A stretch of 7,595 nt of DNA. It comes from Candidatus Eiseniibacteriota bacterium. GTDB taxonomy: Bacteria; JAFGKV01. The position numbers were made by a program, and so were the translations under genes. The DNA lies in the NCBI GenBank assembly GCA_025453925.1, contig JALOPK010000343.1:1-7595 (forward strand). The letters are read 5' to 3'. Shown here piece after piece: positions 1,424 through 7,595 of the stretch (positions are counted from its first letter, which is position 1; every line of letters begins with the position of its first letter). The notes under the pieces were generated by a model. The model was not told the origin of the DNA, made no database searches, and saw only the letters and a list, made by a program, of their open reading frames with translations.

Positions 1424-2848
1424 ATGACGGCGTTCCGCACCGAGACCGATCTGCTGGGCCCGCGGCAGGTTCCCGCCGATGCCCTGCACGGGATACACAC
1501 CGAACGCGCCGTGGAGAACTTTCCCCTCTCCGGACGGCCCGTGCATCCCGCCCTTGTCCAGGCCTACGGCGCTGTCAAACTGGCGTGTGCGAGGGCAAAC
1601 CACGAACTGGGGTGCGGTGATGACCGCATCTTCGAGGCCATCGAGCGAGCCTGCGCCGAGATGATCCGGGGCGACCTGACCGAGGCCGTCATCGTGGACG
1701 CGCTGCAGGGCGGCGCTGGCACCTCCACCAACATGAACGTCAATGAAGTATTGGCCAACCGCGCCCTCCAGTTCATGGGGGAGCAGCCCGGGGCCTACCG
1801 CGTGATCTCTCCCCTTGACGATATCAATCGTCACCAATCCACCAATGACACGTTTCCCACCGCTCTGCGGGTCGCCGCGATGCAGGCGCTCCGACCGCTT
1901 GAGACGGAGATCATCCTCTTGCAGGAGGCCTTCCAGGATCGGGAGCGGGCCCTGGACCACGTGGTCAAGGTGGGTCGAACCCAGTTTCAGGATGCCGTGC
2001 TCGTCACCATGGGGAGGGAGATGGGTGCCTATGCCGAGGCGGTCGCGCGGGACCGATGGCGCATCCACAAGTGCGTTGAGCGTCTCCGAGTAGTGAATCT
2101 CGGCGGCACGGCAGTAGGCACCGGTCTGGGTGCACCGAGGCAGTTCATCTTCCGCGTGGTGGATCATCTCCGCGAGATCACCGGGCTCTCCCTCGCCAGG
2201 GGGGAGAATCTCATGGACGCGACCCAGAACGCCGACGCGTTTGTCGAGGTCGGAGGGATGCTGGCGGCGTGCGCCGCCACGCTCATGAAGATTGCCACCG
2301 ATCTGCGGTTCCTTTCCTCAGGTCCCGAGGCAGGCATCGGGGAGATCCGGCTCCCGCCGCGTCAGACGGGTTCGTCGCTCATGCCCGGCAAGGTAAATCC
2401 GGTCATCCCCGAGGCGGTGACGCAGGCCTCTCTGGTGGTCATTGCCAACAACGGTGCCCTGACCCACGCCTGCGGCCTGGGGAGTCTCGAGCTGAATCCG
2501 TTTCTTCCCCTGGTGGCTGATTTGCTTCTTGCGAACATTACCCTGCTGCAGGGCGCGTGCGGGATCCTCAACCGGTTCTGCGTCGCCGGTCTCGAGGCCG
2601 ACGAGGCACGTTGCCGGCGGCAGGTCGACACCGCTTCCGCCACCGTGACGGCGTTGGTGGAGGAGATCGGCTACGATGCGGCGGAAGCGCTGGCCGCGGA
2701 GGCCAGGGGAACCGGGATGTCGATCAGAATGCTGGCCATTGAGCGCGGCCTCCTCTCCGAAGAGCGTTTCGACCGGCTCACCAGCCCGGAGAGCGTGACG
2801 AAACTCGGGTGGGCCACTCCGCCGGTGGAGCCGGAGGCGACACCATGA
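1424..2848 (+). CDS. aspA: aspartate ammonia-lyase (aspartase) in the hydrogenase maturation cluster
   Basis: Aspartase reversibly deaminates L-aspartate to fumarate and ammonia; it is a cytoplasmic homotetramer of the aspartase/fumarase superfamily. The 474 residues match the usual length. The N-terminus has the aspartase-like DLLGPRQVPAD. Substrate-site blocks are visible: QGGAGTSTNMN (about 95-105), HQSTND (137-142), GRTQFQD (184-190) and the mobile signature loop GSSLMPGKVNP (316-326) with the catalytic serine S318 and K323/N325. The GSS plus NPVIPE wording favours aspartase over fumarase C (SSS, NPTQCE) and argininosuccinate lyase. ATG 1424 is chosen because the protein then begins like known aspartases; a GTG at 1385 would add 13 unconserved residues inside hydG. 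The Shine-Dalgarno is weak, so coupling to hydG, 7 bases upstream, is likely. It ends in an ATGA overlap with hydF. A role in supplying ammonia for the azadithiolate bridge is inferred from context. Confidence 0.93.
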   Translation: MTAFRTETDLLGPRQVPADALHGIHTERAVENFPLSGRPVHPALVQAYGAVKLACARANHELGCGDDRIFEAIERACAEMIRGDLTEAVIVDALQGGAGTSTNMNVNEVLANRALQFMGEQPGAYRVISPLDDINRHQSTNDTFPTALRVAAMQALRPLETEIILLQEAFQDRERALDHVVKVGRTQFQDAVLVTMGREMGAYAEAVARDRWRIHKCVERLRVVNLGGTAVGTGLGAPRQFIFRVVDHLREITGLSLARGENLMDATQNADAFVEVGGMLAACAATLMKIATDLRFLSSGPEAGIGEIRLPPRQTGSSLMPGKVNPVIPEAVTQASLVVIANNGALTHACGLGSLELNPFLPLVADLLLANITLLQGACGILNRFCVAGLEADEARCRRQVDTASATVTALVEEIGYDAAEALAAEARGTGMSIRMLAIERGLLSEERFDRLTSPESVTKLGWATPPVEPEATP

Positions 2849-4314
2849 GCGCGCCCCGCGGCATGCGTCTCCACATCGGGATCTTCGGGCGGAGGAACGT
2901 TGGCAAGTCTTCTCTCCTGAATGCCCTGGCGCGCCAGGATGTGGCCATCGTCTCCGCCACCCCCGGGACGACCACCGACCCCGTGGAGAGGCCCTTCGAG
3001 CTCCAGCCACTGGGGCCGGTCGTGTTTATCGATACCGCGGGCATCGATGATGACGGGGGCCTCGGCGAGCAGCGAACGGGCCGCACCCGCAAGATCCTGG
3101 AGCGGATCGAGGTGGCGCTTCTCGTGGCGGAATCCGGAACCTGGGGTGCGCACGAGGAGGAGTTACTCGACGAGTTGCGACGGCGCGGCGTGCCGCTCGT
3201 CGTGGTGCACAACAAGCGGGATCTATCGCCGCCCGATCCCGGGCTGGTGGCCCGCCTGGCCTCCGGAGGCGTGCCGTCGGTGGAGACCGACGCCGCACGA
3301 GGCATGGGTGTGGCTGAGTTGCTGGCCTCCCTCGTCCGCGCGGTGCCGGACGAACTGGTGGAGGCTCCCCCGCTGGTGGGCGATCTCATCCGGGCGTGCC
3401 AGGCCGTGGTGCTCGTGGTGCCCATCGATCTGGAAGCGCCCAAGGGGCGTCTGATCCTTCCCCAGGTTCAGACCATCCGTGACATCCTGGATCATGACGC
3501 CTGGTGCGTCGTGACCAAGGAGCGGGAGCTGAGGGATGCCCTGGATCGACTCCGGGAATCGCCCGCGCTCGTGATCACCGATTCGCAGGCATTCCTCAAG
3601 GTCGCCGGCGACGTGCCGCCTGGCACCCCTTTGACCTCGTTTTCCATCCTGTTCTCCCGGCTGAAAGGCGACATTCTGACCTTCGCGCAGGGCGCGGCCG
3701 CCATCGACCACCTCCGTTCCGGCGATCGGGTGTTGATGGCCGAGGCCTGCTCGCATCACCCCGTGGGCGACGACATCGGCCGGGTGAAGATCCCGAGATG
3801 GCTCCGTCAATACGCGGGCGGCCACATCGAGTTCGATCACGTGCAGGGGCATGACTTCCCTGCGGATCCCACGGCGTACCGCCTGATCGTCCACTGCGGC
3901 GCCTGCATGCTCACCCGTCGGGAGGTGTTGGGGAGGGTGGCCGTAGCCCGGGCACGGCACGTGCCCATCACGAACTACGGGATGGCCATCGCCCATTCGC
4001 TGGGGCTCCTGGAACGGGCGCTGGCGCCGTTTCCCGCGGCTCTTGAGGCCTATCGCGGGGAAGACTCGTTCTCGATGATGGGCGACCATCGAAAGGGATG
4101 CCACCACGTGGAACCGCGTGTTGAACTGAAGGAAGGTCTCGAGGAAGTACTGCTCGTTCCAGTAGAAGGAGTGCTTCAGGTTCCACTCCAGGGGGTAGTC
4201 GAAGGGGAAGAAGATGTCGTGAATGTGTACGAGCACACCTTCTTGCATACTCGGTGGAATGAAGGGGACTCGCGGCAATCACCTTCACAGCCGCGCGCCT
4301 CACGACACCGCTGA
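2845..4314 (+). CDS. hydF: [FeFe]-hydrogenase maturation GTPase HydF, with abnormal C-terminal extension
   Basis: HydF is the scaffold on which the diiron subcluster is assembled and passed to apo-HydA. Seen: an N-terminal GTPase domain with P-loop GRRNVGKS (15-22), the GTTTD switch (41-45), DTAG (63-66) and NKRD (123-126); a middle dimerisation domain (about 175-270); and a C-terminal cluster domain with C302-x-H304 and H350-C351-x-x-C354, the family's [4Fe-4S] motif. ATG 2845 is chosen for its GGAGG at 2833-2837 and the ATGA overlap with aspA; an in-frame start at 2809 lacks this support. Normal HydF proteins end near 400-410 residues, just after the segment here reading ALAPFPAALEAYR (392-404). 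This frame instead continues to residue 489. The added part is V/E-rich, unlike any HydF, and is explained by antisense reading of a methyltransferase remnant. The catalytic and scaffold parts look intact. Whether the tail is tolerated or removed is unknown. Confidence 0.93.
   Translation: MSAPRGMRLHIGIFGRRNVGKSSLLNALARQDVAIVSATPGTTTDPVERPFELQPLGPVVFIDTAGIDDDGGLGEQRTGRTRKILERIEVALLVAESGTWGAHEEELLDELRRRGVPLVVVHNKRDLSPPDPGLVARLASGGVPSVETDAARGMGVAELLASLVRAVPDELVEAPPLVGDLIRACQAVVLVVPIDLEAPKGRLILPQVQTIRDILDHDAWCVVTKERELRDALDRLRESPALVITDSQAFLKVAGDVPPGTPLTSFSILFSRLKGDILTFAQGAAAIDHLRSGDRVLMAEACSHHPVGDDIGRVKIPRWLRQYAGGHIEFDHVQGHDFPADPTAYRLIVHCGACMLTRREVLGRVAVARARHVPITNYGMAIAHSLGLLERALAPFPAALEAYRGEDSFSMMGDHRKGCHHVEPRVELKEGLEEVLLVPVEGVLQVPLQGVVEGEEDVVNVYEHTFLHTRWNEGDSRQSPSQPRASRHR
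4066..4254 (-). pseudogene. 3' fragment of a class I SAM-dependent methyltransferase, antisense to the hydF tail
   Basis: Reading the - strand from about 4254 down to 4066 gives about 63 residues typical of the C-terminal part of a widespread class I (Methyltransf_24-like) SAM-dependent methyltransferase: VLVHIHDIFFPFDYP, then an EW, then WNEQYFLETFLQFN and a HVVASLSMVAHH segment. These motifs are recalled from the family, not searched. Forty consecutive codons of this frame (from the second His of HIH) end in G or C in all but one case, as expected for a real gene in this GC-rich genome, whereas the overlapping + frame has mixed third positions. The upstream two thirds of such a gene (SAM-binding domain) are missing: a TGA sits just before the TTG at 4278 and nothing recognisable precedes it. 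The fragment also lacks its own stop and reads on into antisense hydF. It is therefore a remnant with no expected function. Confidence 0.82.
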
Positions 4315-4379
4315 CGATACCGAGAAAGCTTGATGAGGCAACGCGTTCGGCCGTGCTCGATGCGTGCGGAGCATTGCTC

Positions 4380-4408
4380 TTGACACGGGGCGAGGAACAG
4401 CGCATACT
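4380..4408 (+). promoter_or_regulatory. sigma70-type promoter of the rex-hydCBA operon
   Basis: A perfect -35 hexamer TTGACA lies at 4380-4385. A 17-base spacer leads to CATACT at 4403-4408, which matches four of six bases of TATAAT. Transcription would start near 4414-4416, about 70 bases before the rex start codon. The stretch is locally richer in A/T than the surrounding genes, and it is the only gap of promoter size in the window. The assignment is by eye, with no start-site data. Confidence 0.72.
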
Positions 4409-4413
4409 GAGCG

Positions 4414-4431
4414 ATGTGATTCAATTCACAA
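4414..4431 (+). promoter_or_regulatory. Rex operator (ROP) over the transcription start
   Basis: The 18 bases ATGTGATTCAATTCACAA form an inverted repeat, TGTGA-N6-TCACA. They match the Rex consensus TTGTGA-N6-TCACAA at 11 of the 12 defined bases; only the first differs. The site begins 5 bases after the -10 hexamer, so it covers the expected +1, where bound Rex would block polymerase. It lies 53 bases upstream of rex, which indicates autoregulation and NADH-controlled expression of the hydrogenase subunits. Known biology: Rex binds such sites when NAD+ dominates and releases them when NADH rises. Confidence 0.85.
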
Positions 4432-4473
4432 TGTGTAGGATTGCACAAGAATAGATAACTCACCGTGAGAAGC

Positions 4474-4478
4474 GGAGG
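4474..4478 (+). promoter_or_regulatory. ribosome binding site of rex
   Basis: GGAGG lies 6 bases before a GTG at 4485. It decides the rex start in favour of this GTG over the in-frame ATG at 4506, which would remove the first seven residues of the Rex protein and has no comparable site. Confidence 0.8.
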
Positions 4479-4484
4479 TAGTCC

Positions 4485-5096
4485 GTGGAGAAGACCATCG
4501 GCCGGATGAGCCTCTACCGCCGGCTATTGCTCGACATCGAGAAACGAGGTGCGAGCCATGTCTACTCCCATGAGCTGGCGCGCGTGGCTGGCATCGGTGC
4601 GGCCCAAGTGCGCCGTGACCTCATGACCATGGGGTTCAGCGGAAGCCCCTCGAAAGGGTATCACGTGGCGGATCTGATAGGGCACATCGGCACGGCCATT
4701 GACCCTCCGGAGCAACAGCGGGTCGCGCTGGTGGGCGTCGGCAACCTTGGGCGCGCGATTCTGGCCTACTTTCACGGACGCCGGCCCAAGCTCGCCATCG
4801 TGGCGGCGTTCGACGATGATTCGGCGAAGGTGGACAAGGTGGTGCACGGATGCCGGTGTCATCCGCTGCGGGCCATGTCGGAAATAGTCCCCGCGCTCGA
4901 CATCACCGTGGGGATCATCACCGTGCCCGCCGAGTCCGCCCAGGACATCGCCGATCGGCTGGTCAACCTCGATATCAAGGGGATCCTCAATTTTGCGCCT
5001 GCCGCGCTGCGAGTCCCCCCCGGCGTCTTCGTCGATACCATGGACATCACCACGGCGCTGGAGAAGGTCGCCTACTTCGCCCGCAAGGGCCGCTGA
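4485..5096 (+). CDS. rex: redox-sensing transcriptional repressor Rex
   Basis: Rex is a cytoplasmic homodimeric repressor that senses the NADH/NAD+ ratio. Seen: an N-terminal winged-helix domain (about 1-75) with the recognition-helix segment GIGAAQVRRDL (36-46); a Rossmann domain with GVGNLG (84-89) followed by an acidic AAFDDD (108-112) for the adenosine ribose; and a C-terminal helix, DITTALEKVAYFAR (187-200), of the type that swaps between subunits. The 203 residues fit the usual 205-225. The GTG start is supported by GGAGG 6 bases upstream. The region after the recognition helix reads MTMGFSGSPSKGY, where classical Rex has a SYFGEFGKRGVGY-like sequence, so this is a divergent, perhaps hydrogenase-dedicated, subgroup. 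A Cys-x-Cys pair (C123, C125) is also unusual. rex is first in the operon, 17 bases before hydC, and its own promoter carries a Rex operator. Confidence 0.95.
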   Translation: MEKTIGRMSLYRRLLLDIEKRGASHVYSHELARVAGIGAAQVRRDLMTMGFSGSPSKGYHVADLIGHIGTAIDPPEQQRVALVGVGNLGRAILAYFHGRRPKLAIVAAFDDDSAKVDKVVHGCRCHPLRAMSEIVPALDITVGIITVPAESAQDIADRLVNLDIKGILNFAPAALRVPPGVFVDTMDITTALEKVAYFARKGR

Positions 5097-5113: not shown

Positions 5114-5590
5114 ATGAACCTCGGTGAGGTCGATGCCATCCTCAACCGCTACCCCAACGCTGCCAGGGATGCGCTGATCCCGATCCTCCAGGAGGTGCAG
5201 GAGCACCTCGGCTTCCTTGACCGGGATGCCGTGGTCAAGATCGGCCAGCACCTGCATCTGCCGGCAAGCAAGGTCTACGGCGTCGCGACCTTCTACAACC
5301 AGTTCAGATTTCACCCGCCCGGGCGGTTCCATGTCCAGCTTTGCCGCGGCACGGCGTGTCACGTGAAGGGGTCGGCCAAGGTGTTGGAGGCAGTCCAGCG
5401 AGCACTCAAGCTCAATCCGGGTGAAACCACCAGAGACGGCCTCTTCAGCCTCGAGGTGGTCGCCTGCATCGGCGCCTGCGGACTGGCGCCGGTGATCAGC
5501 GTCAACGGCGAGTTCCACGGCGGGGTAACGCCCGATTCCGTCAAGAGGATCATCGCGGAGTACCGGGAAAGGGGCAGGAAGGATGCATAG
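5114..5590 (+). CDS. hydC: NADH-dependent [FeFe]-hydrogenase subunit HydC (NuoE/HndA-like, [2Fe-2S])
   Basis: This is the small thioredoxin-fold [2Fe-2S] subunit of multimeric NAD(P)-linked hydrogenases, equivalent to HydC of Thermotoga, HndA of Desulfovibrio and NuoE of complex I. The 158 residues match the family (about 155-165). Seen: an N-terminal helical region with IPILQEVQEHLGFL (22-35), the conserved VYGVATFYNQF (54-64), and the cluster ligands C77 and C82 (CX4C) and C118 and C122 (CX3C). ATG 5114 has a GGAAAGGAAG ribosome binding site and begins like family members; the same frame is open further upstream inside rex, but that part resembles nothing. The last codons overlap the hydB start by 8 bases, implying translational coupling. 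A complex I NuoE is less likely because the neighbours are rex, hydF/hydG and a HydB with extra ferredoxin clusters. Confidence 0.93.
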   Translation: MNLGEVDAILNRYPNAARDALIPILQEVQEHLGFLDRDAVVKIGQHLHLPASKVYGVATFYNQFRFHPPGRFHVQLCRGTACHVKGSAKVLEAVQRALKLNPGETTRDGLFSLEVVACIGACGLAPVISVNGEFHGGVTPDSVKRIIAEYRERGRKDA

Positions 5591-7529
5591 CGCTGCGCCT
5601 CCCTCAAGCATCCTTGATCAGCGCGTTGTGGCGGAATGGTTGCGCGAACCAGACGGGTCCGGGCACGCGATGGCCCGGATGCTGGCGCCGCTTCGGCGCG
5701 ACGACGTGATCCGCCCCGTGATTTTCGTCGGCACGGGCACCTGCGGGTTAGGCGCCGGCGCGGCCAAGACCCTCACGGCAATCCGCTCCCATCTGGCGGC
5801 GCATGCCATCGATGCCGACGTCGTCGAAGTCGGCTGCATCGGGCTTTGCTCCGCCGAACCCATCGTGGAAATCCAGATCCCGGGCCGGCCCCGGGTGATG
5901 TTCCCCAGGGTCGATGCCGGCGGCGTGCCCGCGCTCCTCGATGCTGTACTGGGGGGAACGATTCCGGATGGCGCCCTCGGTCAGCATCCCCACGACGGAA
6001 ACGGATGGCCCGGCGTGCGCCCGCTGCAGGACCATCCTTTCTTCGCACCACAGACGCGCTGGGTACTGGCCAACTGCGGCCTGATCGATCCGGGCAGCAT
6101 GGGCGAATACCTCGCACGGGACGGCTATCGGGCGCAGGCGAAGGCGCTGGGAACCATGACCTCTCAAGATGTCTGCGGCACCGTGGAGGAGAGCGGCCTC
6201 AGGGGCCGAGGCGGCGGGGGGTTTCTCACCGGCCGGAAGTGGCGGTTCGCCCTGACCGCCCCGGGGGACCGCAAGTACCTCATCTGCAACGCCGACGAGG
6301 GAGATCCGGGCGCGTTTATGGACCGCGCGGTCATCGAAGGCGATCCCCACCGGTTGCTTGAGGGAATGGCCATCGCCGCATATGCCATCGGCGCGACCAA
6401 GGCCTACGTGTACATCCGGGCCGAGTATCCCCTGGCGATCGCCAGGCTGAAGACCGCCCTGTCCCAGGCGCACGAAGCGGGTCTCCTCGGCCACAACATC
6501 CTCGACAGCGGCTTCAATCTGGAGATCGTGATCAAGCAGGGCGCCGGGGCGTTCGTGTGCGGTGAGGAGACGGCCTTGATCGCCAGCATAGAGGGCCGGA
6601 GAGGCATGCCGAAGCCGCGCCCACCGTATCCGGCGGTGCGCGGCCTCTTCGACAAACCTACCGTGATCAACAATGTCGAGACCCTGGCGAATGTGCCGCA
6701 GATAGTCCGTCTCGGCGCCGATTGGTTCAACTCCCTGGGAACCGCCTCGAGCAAGGGCACCAAGGTCTTTGCGTTGTCGGGCAAGGTCGCCCGCACCGGT
6801 CTTGTGGAGGTGGCCATGGGCACGTCTCTCCGGCAGATCGTCTTCGACATCGGCGGCGGCCCCCCGGACGGGCGGTCGTTCAAGGCCGTGCAGATCGGAG
6901 GGCCATCCGGCGGCTGCATACCCGAGTCGCACCTCGATATTGATATCGACTATGAGTCGCTCAAGACCGTAGGCGCCATCATGGGTTCCGGCGGGCTGGT
7001 GGTCATGGATGACGCCAACTGCATGGTAGACGTCGCGAAGTTCTTCATGGACTTCATCCAGCGGGAGAGCTGCGGCAAGTGCATCCCGTGCCGCGAGGGC
7101 ACCAGGCGGCTCCTCGAGATGTTGGAGGCCATCACCCGCGCCAGGCGGAGCGAACACGGCGTGCAGGCGCTGGAGCGTTTTCGGGGAATCGTGAACCTGG
7201 AGCGTCTCGCCGAAGTGATTAAGGATACCAGCCTCTGCGGCCTCGGCCAGACCGCTCCCAACCCGGTCTTGAGCACGTTGCGGTGGTTCCGCGACGAGTA
7301 TGAGGCACACGTGTTCGAGCGCCGGTGCCCCGCGGGCGTGTGCAAGGAGTTGCTCGTGTACCGCATCGATCAGTCCCGGTGCACGGGCTGCACCGCCTGC
7401 GCGCGAAAGTGCCCGGCGGAGGCCATAATGGGAGCGCCCAAGAGCCCCCACTACATCGTGCCGGAACGGTGTATCGGATGCGGGGCATGCCTTGAGGCAT
7501 GCCGTTTCGACGCCGTCGTCACCGAATAG
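5583..7529 (+). CDS. hydB: NADH-dependent [FeFe]-hydrogenase flavin subunit HydB (NuoF/HndC-like)
   Basis: HydB binds FMN and NAD(H) and is the proposed site of electron bifurcation or confurcation in trimeric HydABC enzymes. Domains in its 648 residues: an N-terminal thioredoxin-like region with C54 and C85/C89 (CIGLC), probably [2Fe-2S]; the NuoF-type FMN/NADH domain with GRGGGGFLTG (208-217), NADEGDPGAF (236-245) and GAGAFVCGEE (320-329); an SLBB-like region; a [4Fe-4S] site, CGKCIPC (C497, C500, C503) with C552; and a C-terminal two-[4Fe-4S] ferredoxin (C600/603/606/610 and C630/633/636/640). This ferredoxin tail and the N-terminal domain distinguish HydB/HndC from respiratory NuoF (about 430 residues). 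ATG 5583 overlaps the hydC end by 8 bases, with purine-rich AGGAAGG just before it. It is followed 12 bases later by hydA. Bifurcating activity with ferredoxin is inferred from architecture and operon. Confidence 0.94.
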   Translation: MHSAAPPSSILDQRVVAEWLREPDGSGHAMARMLAPLRRDDVIRPVIFVGTGTCGLGAGAAKTLTAIRSHLAAHAIDADVVEVGCIGLCSAEPIVEIQIPGRPRVMFPRVDAGGVPALLDAVLGGTIPDGALGQHPHDGNGWPGVRPLQDHPFFAPQTRWVLANCGLIDPGSMGEYLARDGYRAQAKALGTMTSQDVCGTVEESGLRGRGGGGFLTGRKWRFALTAPGDRKYLICNADEGDPGAFMDRAVIEGDPHRLLEGMAIAAYAIGATKAYVYIRAEYPLAIARLKTALSQAHEAGLLGHNILDSGFNLEIVIKQGAGAFVCGEETALIASIEGRRGMPKPRPPYPAVRGLFDKPTVINNVETLANVPQIVRLGADWFNSLGTASSKGTKVFALSGKVARTGLVEVAMGTSLRQIVFDIGGGPPDGRSFKAVQIGGPSGGCIPESHLDIDIDYESLKTVGAIMGSGGLVVMDDANCMVDVAKFFMDFIQRESCGKCIPCREGTRRLLEMLEAITRARRSEHGVQALERFRGIVNLERLAEVIKDTSLCGLGQTAPNPVLSTLRWFRDEYEAHVFERRCPAGVCKELLVYRIDQSRCTGCTACARKCPAEAIMGAPKSPHYIVPERCIGCGACLEACRFDAVVTE

Positions 7530-7541
7530 ATGAGGAGCGCC

Positions 7542-7595
7542 ATGTTCTCCATTGATGTCAACGGCCGTTCCATCCAGGCCCAGCAGGGCGAGACC
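7542..7595 (+). CDS. hydA: [FeFe]-hydrogenase catalytic subunit HydA (N-terminal 18 codons, cut by the window end)
   Basis: Only 18 codons are visible, reading MFSIDVNG, then RSIQAQQGET. The pattern (beta strand, short turn, then a QQGET-like loop) is the start of the plant-type [2Fe-2S] ferredoxin domain that opens the catalytic subunit of [FeFe]-hydrogenases such as HydA/HndD. The same fold also begins NuoG and some formate dehydrogenase alpha subunits, so the assignment rests mainly on position directly after hydB, in a locus with hydG, hydF and a Rex operator. The ATG at 7542 is favoured because GAGGAG at 7532-7537 is well spaced for it; an in-frame ATG at 7530 would add four residues and lie on the hydB stop codon. 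No H-cluster motif is visible. Confidence 0.78.
   Translation, partial: MFSIDVNGRSIQAQQGET

Follow-up and report, generated by a model that had tools for sequence, protein, structure and literature searches.

HydF proteins, the GTPases of [FeFe]-hydrogenase maturation (TIGR03918; structures 5lad, 3qq5 and 5kh0), combine a GTPase, a dimerisation and a tetramerisation domain with ligands of the cluster motif CxH...HCxxC, and their reading frames normally stop a few residues after the tripeptide PFP. The closest counterpart to the locus described below is the Rex-linked trimeric [FeFe]-hydrogenase operon with aspA of genome G062, in which the genes follow one another in the linear order rex-hndA-hndC-hydA-FdHK-RR-HK-hydE-hydG-aspA-hydF. 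Essentially the same order is kept in G097, G095 and G027, with FdHK and RR perhaps swapped, without aspA and with rex not in the stretch read. In G074, hydF lies upstream of hndA as the first gene of the hyd operon and hydG/hydE come last, an instance (L189/L191) of natural variation in hyd operon order. The aspA gene is a known partner of hyd operons (PMC11736057), and bacteria are documented to form duplications whose joints show scarcely any homology or none (PMC11111574).

The window analysed here, the whole stretch of DNA under study, corresponds to the complete contig C406 (7595 bases) of MAG G000, which consists of 502 contigs at 82% completeness and belongs to a phylum represented in the comparison by three genomes, G000 and two others. 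The contig contains no runs of N and carries hydG, aspA, hydF, about 430 bases of further DNA, rex, hndA, hndC and the start of hydA (Table 1). As in G062, the same genes are present and a promoter and an operator-like site precede rex; unlike in G062, the order is cyclically permuted, hydF being joined upstream of rex. The AspA ammonia-lyase encoded within the hyd operon agrees with the role proposed for this enzyme in dithiomethylamine synthesis (PMC11736057).

Table 1. Features of the 7595-base window
Feature	Position	Strand	Basis
hydG, complete except for its 3 initial codons (contig edge)	1..1416	+	TIGR03955, 467 bits
aspA-type ammonia-lyase	1424..2848	+	NF008909, 589.6 bits (cut-off 510)
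hydF proper	2845..4056 (end approximate)	+	TIGR03918, 531.7 bits; three Pfam domains; 5lad
Joint between hydF and methyltransferase fragment	4054..4063	.	ends of relatives' HydFs; last aligned methyltransferase residue at 4060
Antisense tail of the hydF frame, presumably accidental, with stop	4057..4314	+	no Pfam match; overlong after PFP
Internal fragment of Methyltransf_24 type	4060..4265	-	gapless alignment to Microcystis proteins
Putative rex-operon promoter, sigma-70-like, TTGACA-17-CATACT	4380..4408	+	10/12 consensus matches
Rex-type operator-like palindrome TGTGATTCAATTCACA	4414..4431	.	pattern match, one mismatch
rex, redox-sensing repressor	4485..5096	+	NF003995, 197.5 bits; first operon gene in G062
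hndA/NuoE-like hydrogenase subunit	5114..5590	+	profile match
hndC/NuoF-like hydrogenase subunit	5583..7529	+	profile match
Presumed hydA start, 18 codons up to the contig end	7542..7595	+	gene order in G062, G097, G095 and G036

The composition of both window halves, and that of contig C269 from the same MAG (see below), is close to that of the other MAG contigs, and the nearest relatives of both halves belong to the same genome group. A foreign origin of one contig half was rejected, since composition matches that of the bin. The two other genomes of the phylum that were compared have no HydF, and the nearest hydF copies sit in another phylum, which suggests that hydF was acquired by horizontal gain, or that the contig pair was misbinned although its composition fits the bin.

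The HydF Core and Its Overlong Frame

The frame that begins at 2845 matches TIGR03918 over residues 3-393, far above the cut-off of 325.55 bits. All three Pfam domains of HydF (PF01926, PF18128 and PF18133) were found, and the translation contains CSH and HCGAC, fitting the ligand motif. The protein shares 65% identity with the nearest relative found. The HydF core is intact, the ligand motif included, and may be able to work with the tail attached.

The position at which HydF should end is indicated by the Pfam HydF_tetramer match, which stops at residue 395, and by the solved structure 5lad, which aligns through residue 398; relatives terminate in ...ALEAYREE. Among 17 homologous HydFs, 15 end 6-38 residues past PF[PAE], mostly 6-18, and the remaining two have no PF[PAE] in that form but, at 407 and 414 residues, are of ordinary length. 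The window protein departs from this pattern by running on for 92 residues after the motif and, unlike the described HydFs, carries an 86-residue antisense tail where the stop would normally fall. A previous sequence-only reading of this DNA had estimated the run beyond the usual end at about 85 codons; the frame stays open for 86, with its stop at 4312-4314. Peptides of the tail include GCHHVEPR and VELKEGLEEVLLVPVEGVLQVPLQGVVEGEEDVVNVYEHTFLHTR. The tail has no match in Pfam, and aligning the HydFs of relatives, a check which that reading had proposed, found it in 0 of 17; a conserved tail domain was rejected on both grounds.

A Methyltransferase Fragment on the Opposite Strand

On the minus strand, 69 codons running from 4265 to 4060 without gap or stop share 72-77% identity with methyltransferases of Microcystis. 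A homology search on this strand, likewise proposed earlier, returned 134 confirmed relatives with a best E value of 1e-30, and the full-length proteins among them belong to Pfam Methyltransf_24 (PF13578), with the domain at 127-239. By identity, the fragment stands far nearer to the Microcystis proteins, all others found reaching 58% at most. It resembles the C-terminal part of these proteins, covering about residues 224-290 of 310. Unlike them, it is an internal piece only, without some 223 residues at the N-terminus, among them the whole SAM-binding half with its Rossmann motif, and without some 20 at the C-terminus. The sequence-only reading, which had seen here a clear methyltransferase C-terminus, was thus correct as to the protein family and went too far as to the extent of the piece, since its last 20 or so residues are missing. 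It had also counted 39 G/C-ending codons out of 40 in this frame, which is exact, and had noted the missing stop of this frame, which does indeed continue to 3223.

A stop lies directly upstream of the methyltransferase piece on the minus strand. A hidden N-terminus between 4266 and rex was considered and rejected, as frame-shift-tolerant alignment halts at 4254-4260 with 8 of 8 homologues, and the rest of the gene was not found elsewhere in the MAG or in its two relatives. The closeness of the fragment to the Microcystis proteins suggests that it was obtained by horizontal transfer.

Each codon of the hydF tail frame is the exact reverse complement of a codon in the methyltransferase frame, and an antisense stop therefore requires TTA, CTA or TCA. 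Under the codon usage of the contig, the probability that no antisense stop occurs across the fragment is about 0.79, and all genes of the contig are almost free of antisense stops in that same register. With the frames paired in this way and antisense stops rare under this codon usage, an open tail is to be expected. In codon fit, the tail falls short of the antisense methyltransferase frame. The tail is the antisense reading of a methyltransferase scrap and looks like the scar of a duplication or the product of a mis-join in assembly, not like a working part of HydF; it is presumably without function, and a functional new end of HydF is unlikely.

The Region Upstream of rex

The search for sigma-70-like promoters gave two sites, against 0.2 expected in shuffles. 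A pattern for the symmetrised palindrome, written after the site had been seen, matched once, at TGTGATTCAATTCACA and with a single mismatch, and in 0 of 200 shuffles. Going by the Rex consensus, we take the site at 4414-4431 to be similar to the Rex operator. Standing together before rex, the promoter and the operator-like palindrome suggest that the hydrogenase operon may be autoregulated, and both are intact just past the methyltransferase relic. With the simple patterns tried, no Rex-type palindrome was found upstream of rex in G062, G124 or G123; relatives yielded no convincing DNA homologous to this region of the window, and no plasmid DNA similar to 4051-4484 was found.

Operon Order and the Joint

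Turned round, contig C269 opens with the C-terminal part of hydA, continues with genes for a ferredoxin-histidine kinase, a response regulator and another kinase, and closes with hydE and the beginning of hydG. The 108 bases at its end agree with the first 108 of the window at 104 positions (96%). Two versions of the hydG start in one bin would fit either a strain mixture or two gene copies. Through this overlap C269 leads into the hydG of the window, and by gene order the right end of the window leads into hydA, where C269 begins, the middle of hydA being missing between the two contigs. From the G062 order and the C269 overlap it follows that the window joins the last gene of the operon, hydF, to the region before the first, rex, and, because the window ends at the hydA start, C406 and C269, if they lie on one molecule, together give the operon in cyclically permuted order. 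The end of the unit is joined to its own beginning, and on this gene order the joint is head-to-tail, such as a tandem duplication, a circle or a mis-join would leave. The position of hydF ahead of the structural genes is by itself no proof of duplication, since G074 is naturally so arranged; the order hydF-methyltransferase-rex was present in no hydF neighbourhood read from other genomes.

At the joint, the homologies of HydF and of the methyltransferase meet without a gap, which bears out the earlier description of hydF as having lost its stop and abutting, tail-to-tail, a methyltransferase remnant. No shared repeat of at least 16 bases was found at the joint within the contig, and a repeat driving a mis-join was rejected, none of useful length existing within the contig. 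In the bin, which is 82% complete, hydF occurs once, and positions 1-400, 3900-4500 and 7000-7595 have no further copy except for the 108-base hydG overlap.

The explanation that we prefer, tentatively, is that the joint arose from a head-to-tail tandem duplication by illegitimate recombination; we rank an artefact second and, third, the deletion proposed in the sequence-only reading or a reordered operon, and these rankings reflect judgements and not computed values. The joint, at about 4054-4063, would link the 3' end of the operon (...hydE-hydG-aspA-hydF) to DNA just upstream of the rex-hndA-hndC-hydA promoter. This upstream DNA would have brought with it the relic of an antisense methyltransferase gene, and the new joint would have removed the last codons of hydF, whose frame would then read the antisense strand of the relic for 86 codons. 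A head-to-tail joint explains at once why the methyltransferase has lost both of its ends and why the junction falls between hydF and rex. Two operon copies, or two strains, would account for the 4% mismatch in the overlap, which argues against a simple circle. As in tandem-duplication joints attributed to illegitimate recombination, the end of the unit meets its start with little or no homology (PMC11111574); unlike those joints, the one in the window is known from a MAG contig alone. We infer that the arrangement was present in a cell, and there as a tandem duplication. That such a duplication of the hyd operon, in this sparsely sampled lineage, also gave a longer HydF that is expressed and whose tail is tolerated or even used seems to us very improbable.

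The strongest competitor, which we nevertheless consider unlikely, is a chimera of assembly or library preparation, the former also listed in the sequence-only reading, in which the operon end was wrongly joined to a fragment from near its start, so that joint and tail would exist in no cell. The MAG is fragmented into 502 contigs, C406 and C269 each break off within genes of the operon, the divergence within the overlap indicates mixed strains or copies, and the hydF-methyltransferase-rex order was absent from all other hydF neighbourhoods read. However, a chimera needs two breakpoints about 205 bases apart, each with reads across it, and the contig offers neither a repeat at the joint nor a run of N, while composition is similar on either side; a mis-join with two such closely spaced breakpoints and no shared repeat would be unusual.

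Less probable again is a reordered single-copy operon or a convergent-gene deletion, the latter having been put forward in the sequence-only reading as the simplest explanation. A methyltransferase would once have lain between hydF and rex and have been deleted from both sides. The tail-to-tail orientation with zero gap agrees with it, and G074 demonstrates that hydF can lie upstream of hndA. Yet no fewer than two deletions and a rearrangement of the operon would be required, and C269, from the same bin, has hydA...hydE-hydG in standard order. With both ends of the methyltransferase gone and the joint placed exactly between hydF and rex, the loss of two stops from convergent genes is not supported as the simplest reading. 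A small circular molecule bearing the operon, with the joint closing the circle, is highly improbable: C406 and C269 would form a ring if the hydA gap were bridged, but the parts seen hold no replication gene and their overlap is mismatched. The least probable reading of all is that overprinting gave HydF a selected, functional C-terminus, a possibility raised earlier for which the open frame after an intact HydF speaks, but which is opposed by the absence of the tail from every relative and from Pfam, by an openness expected from the codon register and by a codon fit inferior to that of the antisense frame.

Implications

Should the joint be an artefact, it means that unusual protein ends in MAG contigs need to be checked against other contigs of the same bin. 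If it is real, it would document that a full hydrogenase gene set was recently amplified in a lineage in which neither of the two other genomes compared has HydF. The case would then also show how a reading frame can gain an antisense tail without coding selection, since complementary registers rarely hold stops in GC-rich DNA.
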